Assembly (NCBI GenBank): GCA_033675265.1
Contig: JAUJYZ010000989.1
Span: 62,001 to 126,000, forward strand
Reading direction: 5' to 3'
Length of the DNA: 64,000 nt
Source: Actinostola sp. cb2023
Lineage: Eukaryota; Cnidaria; Anthozoa; Actiniaria; Actinostolidae
Shown piece by piece: positions 44,301 through 53,300 of this stretch (the stretch's first letter is position 1; each line of letters begins with the position of its first letter). A model generated the notes under the pieces. That model ran no database searches. It was not told the DNA's origin and was given only the letters and a program-made list of their open reading frames with translations. The position numbers and the translations under genes were made by a program.

Positions 44301-47300
44301 CTTTATCTATCCTCACCGACACAGTCTCCCGCGTCACGCAACTGTCATTGTCCTTGTCATAATGCCCGAGTGTACGCTCATTGAGTGTCTTGTTGAATTA
44401 TAATTACAGAGATCCAATTATGTATGTTGATTAAATTATATCGTGAATTTCGTAGATTTTCCAGCCTGAAAGCAATAACCCTTTGTTTCGTCATTCATTC
44501 AGCTGCTTGCAACAAGTCACCATGGAATGCCAGAAAGAGGAGGAATTTCTTTACATGCTTTCAGAAGATTGAGTTGCAGCAGATATTCTCGAGGAATTCG
44601 TACCCTTCCAGAGAGATGTGCGAGGCTATAGCGCAGTGGTTTGGTAGCAACCCTTACTCTGTGAAGGTACTTGTATCCGTCCTTACTCTATTCGTGTGTC
44701 CTAATCATATGCATGTATGCTAATTACACGATAATGGTAACAACCCTTACTCTGTGAAGGTACTTGTTGTATCCGTCCTCACTTTATTCGTGTGTCCTAA
44801 TCATATGCATGTATGCTAATTACACGATAATGGTAACAACCCTTACTCTGTGAAGGTACTTGTTGTATCCGTCCTTACTGTATTCGTGTGTCCTAATCAT
44901 ATGCATGTATGCTAATTACACGATAATGGTAGCAACCCTTACTCTGTGAAGGTACTTGTTGTATCCGTCCTTACTTTATTTGTGTGTCCTAATCATATGC
45001 ATGTATGCTAATTACACGATAATGGTAACAACCCTTACTCTGTGAAGGTACTTGTTGTATCCGTCCTTACTTTATTTGTGTGTCCTAATCATATGCATGT
45101 ATGCTAATTACACGATAATGGTAACAACCCTTACTCTGTCAAGGTACTTGTTGTATCCGTCCTTACTGTATTTGTGTGTCCTAATCATATGCATGTATGC
45201 TAATTACTCACGATAATGGTAACAACCCTTACTCTGTGAAGGTACTTGTTGTATCCGTCCTTACTTTATCCGTCCTTACTCTATTCGTGTGTCCTAATCA
45301 TATGCATATATGCTAATTACACGATAATGGTAACAACCCTTACTCTGTGAAGGTACTTGTTGTATCCGTCCTTACTTTATTCGTGTGTCCTAATCATATG
45401 CATGTATGCTAATTACACGATAATGGTAACAACCCTTACTCTGTGAAGGTAATTGTTGTATCCGTCCTTACTTTATTCGTGTCCTAATCATATGCATATA
45501 TGCTAATTACACGATAATGGTAACAACCCTTACTCTGTGAAGGTACTTGTATCCGTCCTTACTTTATTCGTGTGTCCTAATCATATGCATGTATGCTAAT
45601 TACACGATAATGGTAACAACCCTTACTCTGTGAAGGTACTTGTTGTATCCGTCCTTACTTTATTCGTGTGTCCTAATCATATGTGTCCTAATCATATGCA
45701 TATATGCTAATTACACGATAATGGTAACAACCCTTACTCTGTGAAGGTACTTGTATCCGTCCTTACTCTATTCGTGTGTCCTAATCATATGCATATATGC
45801 TAATTACACGATAATGGTAACAACCCTTACTCTGTGAAGGTACTTGTTGTATCCGTCCTTACTTTATTCGTGTGTCCTAATCATATGCATATATGCTAAT
45901 TACACGATAATGGTAACAACCCTTACTCTGTGAAGGTACTTGTATCCGTCCTTACTTTATTCGTGTGTCCTAATCATATGCATGTATGCTAATTACACGA
46001 TAATGGTAACAACCCTTACTCTGTGAAGGTACTTGTATCCGTCCTTACTTTATTCGTGTGTCCTAATCATATGCATATATGCTAATTACACGATAATGGT
46101 AACAACCCTTACTCTGTGAAGGTACTTGTATCCGTCCTTACTTTATTCGTGTGTCCTAATCATATGCATATATGCTAATTACACGATAATGGTAACAACC
46201 CTTACTCTGTGAAGGTACTTGTTGTATCCGTCCTTACTTACTTTATTCGTGTGTCCTAATCATATCATATGCATGTATGCTAATTACACGATAATGGTAA
46301 CAACCCTTACTCTGTTAAGGTACTTGTTGCATCCGTCCTTACTTTTATTCGTGTGTCCTAATCATATGCATATATGCTAATTACACGATAATGGTAACAA
46401 CCCTTACTCTGTGAAGGTACTTGTATCCGTCCTTACTTTATTCGTGTGTCCTAATCATATGCATGTATGCTAATTGCACGATAATGGTAACAACCCTTAC
46501 TCTGTGAAGGTACTTGTTGTATCCGTCCTTACTTTATTCGTGTGTCCTAATCATATGCATGTATGCTAATTACACGATAATGGTAACAACCCTTACTCTG
46601 TGAAGGTACTTGTATCCGTCCTTACTTTATTCGTGTGTCCTAATCATATGCATATATGCTAATTACACGATAATGGTAACAACCCTTACTCTGTGAAGGT
46701 ACTTGTATCCGTCCTTACTTTATTCGTGTGTCCTAATCATATGCATATATGCTAATTACACGATAATGGTAACAACCCTTACTCTGTGAAGGTACTTGTT
46801 GTATCCGTCCTTACTTTATTCGTGTGTCCTAATCATATGCATATATGCTAATTACACGATAATGGTAACAACCCTTACTCTGTGAAGGTACTTGTTGTAT
46901 CCGTCCTTACTTTATTCGTGTGTCCTAATCATATGCATGTATGCTAATTACACGATAATGGTAACAACCCTTACTCTGTGAAGGTACTTGTTGTATCCGT
47001 CCTTACTTTATTCGTGTGTCCTAATCATATGCATATATGCTAATTACACGATAATGGTAACAACCCTTACTCTGTGAAGGTACTTGTTGTATCCGTCCTT
47101 ACTTTATTCGTGTGTCCTAATCATATGCATGTATGCTAATTGCACGATAATGGTAACAACCCTTACTCTGTGAAGGTACTTGTTGTATCCGTCCTTACTT
47201 TATTCGTGTGTCCTAATCATATGCATATATGCTAATTACACGATAATGGTAACAACCCTTACTCTGTGAAGGTACTTGTTGTATCCGTCCTTACTTTATT

Positions 47301-50300: not shown

Positions 50301-53300
50301 GAAGGTACTTGTATCCGTCCTTACTTTATTCGTGTGTCCTAATAATCATATGCATGTATGCTAATTACACGATAATGGTAACAACCCTTACTCTGTGAAG
50401 GTACTTGTATCCGTCCTTACTTTATTCGTGTGTCCTAATCATATGCATATATGCTAATTACACGATAATGGTAACAACCCTTACTCTGTGAAGGTACTTG
50501 TATCCGTCCTTACTTTATTCGTGTGTCCTAATCATATGCATATATGCTAATTACACGATAATGGTAGCAACCCTTACTCTGTGAAGGTACTTGTTGTATC
50601 CGTCCTTACTTTATTTATTCGTGTGTCCTAATCATATGCATATATGCTAATTACACGATAATGGTAACAACCCTTACTCTGTGAAGGTACTTGTATCCGT
50701 CCTTACTTTATTCGTGTGTCCTAATCATATGCATGTATGCTAATTACACGATAATGGTAACAACCCTTACTCTGTGAAGGTACTTGTTGTATCCGTCCTT
50801 ACTTTATTCGTGTGTCCTAATCATATGCATATATGCTAATTACACGATAATGGTAACAACCCTTACTCTGTGAAGGTACTTGTATCCGTCCTTACTTTAT
50901 TCGTGTGTCCTAATCATATGCATATATGCTAATTACACGATAATGGTAACAACCCTTACTCTGTGAAGGTACTTGTATCCGTCCTTACTTTATTCGTGTG
51001 TCCTAATCATATGCATATATGCTAATTACACGATAATGGTAACAACCCTTACTCTGTGAAGGTACTTGTATCCGTCCTTACTTTATTCGTGTGTCCTAAT
51101 CATATGCATATATGCTAATTACACGATAATGGTCGCAACCCTTACTCTGTGAAGGTACTTGTATCCGTCCTTACTTTATTCGTGTGTCCTAATCATATGC
51201 ATATATGCTAATTACACGATAATGGTAACAACCCTTACTCTGTGAAGGTACTTGTATCCGTCCTTACTTTATTCGTGTGTCCTAATCATATGCATATATG
51301 CTAATTACACGATAATGGTAGCAACCCTTACTCTGTGAAGGTACTTGTATCCGTCCTTACTTTATTCGTGTGTCCTAATCATATGCTAATTACACGATAA
51401 TGGTAGCAACCCTTACTCTGTGAAGGTACTTGTTGTATCCGTCCTTACTTTATTCGTGTGTCCTAATCATATGCATCTATGCTAATTACACGATAATGGT
51501 AGCAACCCTTACTCTGTGAAGGTACTTGTTGTATCCGTCCTTACTTTATTCGTGTGTCCTAATCATATGCATATATGCTAATTACACGATAATGGTAACA
51601 ACCCTTACTCTGTGAAGGTACTTGTTGTATCCGTCCTTACTTTATTCGTGTGTCCTAATCATATGCATATATGCTAATTACACGATAATGGTAACAACCC
51701 TTACTCTGTGAAGGTACTTGTATCCGTCCTTACTTTATTCGTGTGTCCTAATCATATGCATATATGCTAATTACACGATAATGGTAACAACCCTTACTCT
51801 GTGAAGGTACTTGTATCCGTCCTTACTTTATTCGTGTGTCCTAATCATATGCATATATGCTAATTACACGATAATGGTAGCAACCCTTACTCTGTGAAGG
51901 TACTTGTATCCGTCCTTACTTTATTCGTGTGTCCTAATCATATGCATATATGCTAATTACACGATAATGGTAACAACCCTTACTCTGTGAAGGTACTTGT
52001 ATCCGTCCTTACTTTATTCGTGTGTCCTAATCATATGCATGTATGCTAATTACACGATAATGGTAACAACCCTTACTCTGTTAAGGTACTTGTTGCATCC
52101 GTCCTTACTTTATTCGTGTGTCCTAATCATATGCATATATGCTAATTACACGATAATGGTAACAACCCTTACTCTGTGAAGGTACTTGTATGCGTCCTTA
52201 CTGTATTCGTGTGTCCTAATCATATGCATATATGCTAATTACACGATAATGGTAACAACCCTTACTCTGTGAAGGTACTTGTTGTATCCGTCCTTACTTT
52301 ATTCGTGTGTCCTAATCATATGCATATATGCTAATTACACGATAATGGTAACAACCCTTACTCTGTGAAGGTACTTGTTGTATCCGTCCTTACTTTATTC
52401 GTGTGTCCTAATCATATGCATGTATGCTAATTACACGATAATGGTAACAACCCTTACTCTGTGAAGGTACTTGTTGTATCCGTCCTTAATTTATTCGTGT
52501 GTCCTAATCATATGCATGTATGCTAATTACACGATAATGGTAACAACCCTTACTCTGTGAAGGTACTTGTTGTATCCGTCCTTAATTTATTCGTGTGTCC
52601 TAATCATATGCATGTATGCTAATTACACGATAATGGTAACAACCCTTACTCTGTGAAGGTACTTGTTGTATCCGTCCTTACTTTATTCGTGTGTCCTAAT
52701 CATATGCATGTATGCTAATTACACGATAATGGTAACAACCCTTACTCTGTGAAGGTACTTGTTGTATCCGTCCTTACTTTATTCATGTGTCCTAATCATA
52801 TGCATATATGCTAATTACACGATAATGGTAACAACCCTTACTCTGTGAAGGTACTTGTATCCGTCCTTACTTTATTCGTGTGTCCTAATCATATGCATAT
52901 ATGCTAATTACACGATAATGGTAACAACCCTTACTCTGTGAAGGTACTTGTATCCGTCCTTACTTTATTCGTGTGTCCTAATCATATGCATGTATGCTAA
53001 TTACACGATAATGGTAACAACCCTTACTCTGTGAAGGTACTTGTATCCGTCCTTACTTTATTCGTGTGTCCTAATCATATGCATATATGCTAATTACACG
53101 TAACTCAACTACACGACAGTACTATATGCATCTGTGCAAACAACAAATTACTTTCAAATTACAATGCTGATATATGATATCTTTTCTGAAAGATTTGGTT
53201 CAAAAACCGTCGAGCAAGGCACAAGAAATCCTCGCCCCAGAGTTTCCCAACAGACCCAATTAATGGAATGAACCAAAGCTGTCCACAACTACAGTCCAAG

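Follow-up and report, generated by a model that had tools for sequence, protein, structure and literature searches.

Tandem repeats whose units straddle an exon-intron boundary are already known in several forms. In amphioxus, the so-called mirages of Adh3, the globins BflGb6 and BflGb9, troponin C and PGBD5 are boundary-spanning tandem repeats, located at donors in some cases and at acceptors in others; many of them carry AG/GT signals, several genes per genome are affected, the later copies are intronic, and reverse transcription-polymerase chain reaction suggests normal splicing (PMC3087553, PMC3902484). In humans, the unit of the 31-bp variable number tandem repeat of CBS (c.1444_1467+7) likewise consists of an exon end and an intron start, with 24 exonic and 7 intronic bases according to its notation (PMC2630376), and the internal tandem repeats of segmental duplicates represent minisatellite expansion at exon-intron boundaries that is linked to altered introns (PMC2812944). 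In the AGGT route of intron gain (the Rogers model; ATP2A1, potato RdRp), each extra copy brings a new pair of GT and AG (PMC4974935). Here we describe an array of this general kind in a homeobox gene of Actinostola sp. cb2023 (Cnidaria, Actiniaria), where the animal group, the array size and the number of affected genes are new. The gene lies in a 64,000-nt stretch (positions 62,001 to 126,000 of contig JAUJYZ010000989.1, assembly GCA_033675265.1), referred to below as the window; coordinates are positions in the window, and the assembly searched comprises 424,152,321 bp in 1,594 contigs.

The layout of the amphioxus mirages, including the AG/GT signals, the intronic nature of the later copies and the involvement of several genes on either side of introns, recurs here, whereas their copy numbers are low (3 or 6 units of 150-160 bp in BflGb6; units of 10-72 bp in Adh3) compared to the 89 units and 8.5 kb of the homeobox array. 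The CBS repeat shares the composition of the unit and differs in that the unit is shorter, is present in 16-21 copies and forms a polymorphism of a single gene with reported allele-dependent effects (PMC2630376). The human segmental-duplicate repeats occupy the same kind of position and differ in their average of four 30-bp units, their location in recently duplicated genes and their transcript support (PMC2812944). As in AGGT intron gain, each copy adds a GT and an AG; in contrast to it, an existing intron has been enlarged and no new intron position appears in the mRNA. Our literature search found no report of such arrays in cnidarians, which is weak evidence of absence given that most subscription papers were outside the search.

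The homeobox gene and its array comprise the following features (a slash within a motif marks the splice junction).

44503..44666, plus strand: homeobox exon 2, 164 nt, matching PF00046 at positions 1-38 alone and 1-57 when joined to the next exon
44503, plus strand: 5' end of exon 2, predicted from its context as the acceptor TTCATTCAG/CTGC
44667..53192, plus strand: intron of 8,526 nt in phase 0, following homeodomain residue 46, with the exon join backed by the Pfam match
44667, plus strand: first donor, AAG/GTACTTG, directly 3' of exon 2
44642..53100, plus strand: boundary-spanning minisatellite of 89 units, mostly 93 or 96 bp, delimited with Tandem Repeats Finder and by cutting at the exon-tail motif
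44721..44723, plus strand: in-frame TAA that is reached, on reading the exon frame, when the first donor is unused
48166..51378, plus strand: block copied within the array; the exact 569-bp run 48166-48734 recurs 2,644 bp downstream and is followed by more long runs
53101..53192, plus strand: unrepeated 3' part of the intron, containing a branch-like CTGAT 23 nt from the end as well as the acceptor GAAAG
53193..53513, plus strand: next homeobox exon, an open frame with its stop at 53511-53513, placed by the joined homeodomain match

The acceptor of the intron is TTTTCTGAAAG/ATTTGG, with the AG ending at 53192, 92 nt past the array. Exon 2 alone covers positions 1-38 of the 57 in the Pfam Homeodomain profile and, joined to the next exon, all of them (1-57, 55.2 bits), so both splice sites are supported. 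The position of the intron is ordinary because 48 other homeodomain matches in this genome stop at profile positions 44-49. DUX4 homeodomains are the top PDB matches of the protein; the database search for homologues returned three candidates, none at an E-value of 0.001 or better. Copies of a dispersed repeat lie at 10449-10669, 44097-44400 and 54798-55405, such that the homeobox gene is flanked on both sides; the last copy contains an open frame of 209 amino acids.

The intron consists almost entirely of the minisatellite (89.0 copies, period 96, 93% matches, score 14044 in Tandem Repeats Finder), a copy number that is beyond chance, and the estimate of about 90 donor copies in some 8.5 kb made in an earlier note on this DNA is thus confirmed. 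The array is a head-to-tail repeat of 25 nt of exon and approximately 70 nt of intron, in which the real exon end belongs to the outermost unit, unit 1, whose first 25 nt (44642-44666) are the final 25 nt of exon 2. The earlier note had given the shared tail as 24 nt, one nucleotide short, and had correctly identified the donor: AAG/GT is present in all 89 units and the exact AAG/GTACTTG in 88, the remaining one having GTAATTG; unit 34 is partly duplicated internally, which yields one additional donor. The same note had taken the unit lengths to be 93 and 96 bp, multiples of three, and this holds for 72 of the 89 units (37 of 93 bp and 35 of 96 bp); the other 17, counted with the last unit truncated by the end of the array, have different lengths, and 12 of the 88 steps between units are not divisible by three (76 are). 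The exon frame does run into a TAA within the first unit, as claimed, and one-step use of any later donor introduces a stop before the recognition helix.

Within the exon tail, one codon is AAC in 75 units, AGC in 12 (the exon included) and CGC in 2; counts of exon-tail conservation within the array mainly reflect two common variants and the length difference between 93- and 96-bp units. Within the array, 28 units have been duplicated as a block, at offsets of 2,638-2,644 bp, with exact runs of up to 569 bp interrupted by small differences. The array is unique in the assembly, with 40 of the 41 matches falling inside it. The other match, on contig C330 (locus L039), is a single, incomplete copy of the intronic portion that continues beyond the end of the unit and, by eye, resembles the 3' flank of the array; the last unit of the array probably passes into old sequence of the intron.

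The array is quite probably an exon-intron-boundary minisatellite of the mirage kind that arose by duplication of the boundary, allows a normal mRNA and is neutral or mildly costly rather than a regulator. Its unit contains sequence from either side of a single exon-intron boundary, its outermost copy is the edge of the exon, and similar arrays are found in several genes, on both sides of introns. Besides the main array, there are four on the donor side (in a NEDD4-like gene that also lies in the window, in another homeobox gene, in a DNA2-like gene and in an SMG6-like gene) and three on the acceptor side (in the NEDD4-like gene, the SMG6-like gene and, probably, a third homeobox gene). Because the same kind of array occurs in the NEDD4-like, DNA2-like and SMG6-like genes, the arrays are more in keeping with a mutational tendency of the genome than with regulation of this homeobox gene. 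The founding event would have been a tandem duplication across the exon-intron boundary, given that the unit joins exon and intron sequence; the common origin of array and exon tail proposed in the earlier note is supported. Growth may then have proceeded via slippage, unequal exchange or conversion, and the 28-unit block, copied with small differences, points to unequal exchange. Since any copy number leaves the left exon end and its donor intact, expansion would be silent if the left donor is used: the leftmost copy would keep the exon end and one donor, and the mature mRNA would be normal. We infer normal splicing of the homeobox transcript, with the first donor picked through its position beside the exon and with mRNAs from later donors presumably corrected, or destroyed owing to the early stop.

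Two observations weigh against this interpretation. The lancelet arrays are far smaller (3 to 6 units in the globins), so that their behaviour may not extend to 89 units, and the first donor is weak and equal to the rest, so that sequence alone gives it no advantage. Its score is 4.4 bits, no higher than that of the other array donors, compared to a median of 11.2 bits for 39 sampled homeobox donors, of which one is lower; the sample consists of 39 of the 48 other homeodomain exons that end at profile positions 44-49, omitting eight of the nine on contig C1324 and one of the two on contig C879. With a human-type matrix, the score is 5.9 bits and five of the 39 sampled donors are lower. Part of the weakness comes from the A at position -3, which is determined by the codon. 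Most units also contain a second donor-like site, ATG/GTAACA (5.2 bits, human-type matrix). With a first donor that is weak and no different from the others, the choice of donor must depend on position next to the exon or on subsequent correction.

Recursive splice sites are zero-length exons in which an AG lies beside a GT (AG/GT), so that an intron is removed stepwise with no trace in the mRNA. The array resembles them in the abutment of AG and GT and differs in presenting 88 copies in a row. The literature search found no paper that links recursive splicing with minisatellites and tandem repeats. Each unit could be read as a GT...AAG intron, and a self-correcting or recursive intron might follow, spliced in multiple steps, in which any donor would leave a residue that in turn forms an exact GT-AG intron, with branch-like site, and preserves the frame, such that dozens of splice paths would lead to one correct mRNA. 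We consider this improbable, even though all 89 units have AAG/GT and, in other genes, introns have arisen from tandem copies of AGGT segments (PMC4974935). By simple measures, applied in place of a trained acceptor model, the end of the consensus unit resembles the real acceptor: it has a branch-like CTAAT 37 nt before AAG, 12 pyrimidines among 20 positions and more than 68 nt free of another AG, while the acceptor of the homeobox intron has CTGAT 23 nt before its end, likewise 12 pyrimidines among 20 positions, and more than 69 AG-free nt. The otherwise AG-free stretch, however, contains an AG in 12 units, the donor-side units of the NEDD4-like, DNA2-like and SMG6-like genes measure 46-53 bp, which is short for an intron, and have extra AGs, and re-splicing is reportedly repressed by the exon junction complex (PMC8234774, PMC10957711).

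Two further explanations appear highly unlikely. The earlier note had suggested, as one of two options, a splicing switch for a developmental regulator, in which the donors would compete; the fraction of transcripts with donor 1 would then set the amount of active homeodomain protein. The repeated donor is indeed weak, and the stop that later donors bring in before the recognition helix is compatible with such a role; nevertheless, arrays of the same kind occur in the unrelated NEDD4-like, DNA2-like and SMG6-like genes, the lancelet cases appear to be normally spliced, and the unit lengths drift, with 17 of 89 units neither 93 nor 96 bp, all of which weighs against the switch. Titration of U1 and a shield against premature polyadenylation are further conceivable functions of the array. 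The remaining explanation, to which we assign an equally small chance, is an assembly artefact, the true locus having far fewer units: long tandem arrays are difficult to assemble, one large block occurs in two copies, and one lancelet mirage was misassembled in the draft genome (PMC3087553). Against this, the units vary along the array, the two copied blocks differ in places, and the assembly contains other many-copy boundary arrays (NEDD4-like and SMG6-like); the boundary-spanning layout would hold even with fewer units. A boundary minisatellite with probably normal splicing remains our preferred interpretation.

The NEDD4-like gene is encoded on the minus strand of the window, with a C2 domain (E-value 6e-14), two WW exons and NEDD4L as the best PDB match (E-value 7.9e-19); its HECT match is weak (0.0011) and below the cut-off. 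Its arrays are as follows.

21211..21337, minus strand: start of the donor-side array at the exon end ...CACTGCACAG/GTATGT, with the first 2.8 units of 46 bp
19496..20753, minus strand: continuation of the 46-bp donor-side array, 27.3 units, past an inserted inverted-repeat element
25552..26898, minus strand: acceptor-side array in which ATATCTTACAG occurs 31 times at intervals of 43-47 bp, the final copy being the acceptor of a C2 exon

Across the two donor-side blocks, CAG/GTATG is present in 29 copies. The inverted-repeat element between them (approximately 460 bp, 20754-21210) has copies at 2123-2587 and 36153-36604 that are 91-94% identical.

Outside the window, the DNA2-like gene (locus L081; PF21123, E-value 7.8e-10) has three 46-bp units on the donor side, and the SMG6/EST1A-like gene (locus L082; PF13638, E-value 4.9e-10; PDB 2dok, E-value 2.1e-15) has a 53-bp donor-side array of approximately 6.5 kb. 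In the latter, the next exon (VINELDGL) follows the array, and the 3' end of the intron after it consists of four acceptor-side units with a spacing of 52 bp; shortly downstream of its donor, the same intron contains a minisatellite with the motif CTTACCCCTCCTC...GCAGAACATGGGTGG. In both the NEDD4-like and the SMG6-like gene, the acceptor-side array terminates precisely at the AG of the genuine acceptor; because they include no exon sequence, these two arrays conform to the mirage layout only loosely. Among the matches listed for a repeated strong-donor pattern, two arrays were found, those of the DNA2-like and SMG6-like genes, both at exon ends, although a donor-shaped pattern favours finding arrays in such places. 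The genome-wide pattern search for enrichment (three AGGTAAGT with gaps of 15-45) gave 167 forward and 478 reverse matches versus 8,307 and 8,569 for the reversed control; we attribute the high control counts, which deprive the comparison of its value as a test of enrichment, to simple repeats.

There are at least 145 homeodomain matches in the genome. Among the 39 sampled homeobox exon ends, one (locus L046) shows a clear exon-tail donor array, a diverged 77-bp repeat of 3.7 copies that includes the exon tail. The 39 exon ends contain 11 arrays with a period of 20 or more, of which three begin between -30 and +20 of the donor; a bias towards splice sites is suggestive only (binomial p of approximately 0.02), as the interval was chosen post hoc and two of the three arrays, at L063 and L068, start approximately 5 and 15 nt inside the intron and contain no exon sequence. 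Locus L049 has a 56-bp array of at least 4.1 copies, reaching the end of the sequence piece examined, with a unit that looks like an acceptor followed by an exon start, TTCTCTAG/GTATGGTTCAAT; it is a probable acceptor-side array of a homeobox gene whose true exon would lie beyond that piece. A 54-68-bp array at L026 (362-836), upstream of an NK-like homeobox, has units with CCAAG/GTAGGT and is not tied to an exon end, and neither is an array at L009. Homeoboxes are also clustered in this genome: four Mox-like ones fall within a 33-kb section of contig C813, five homeodomain matches are located on contig C150, of which the three translated all look Hox-like, and nine matches approximately 2.8 kb apart form a tandem gene array at C1324:207632-230255.

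Elsewhere in the window, a repeated block of approximately 1.25 kb (37646-38889 and 62771-64000, 93% identical) has more matches in reverse orientation. Near-identical open frames at 14170-14433 (plus strand) and 15080-15343 (minus strand), approximately 0.9 kb apart, form an inverted repeat resembling a mobile element. A suspected WD-like gene at 32-33 kb has no Pfam match.

The arrays of Actinostola suggest that boundary-spanning minisatellites are not peculiar to lancelets and, with copies that are still exact, provide material for the question of how introns grow and originate by tandem duplication. They also constitute a natural experiment, independently repeated in several genes, on the choice of the spliceosome among dozens of near-identical donors per transcript. 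At the same time, the end of a coding exon is exposed to conversion from the array: the exon has AGC (Ser) where 75 of the 89 units have AAC (Asn). If the self-correcting reading were true, boundary duplications would be tolerated and could grow to a hundred copies through proofing by a second splice.

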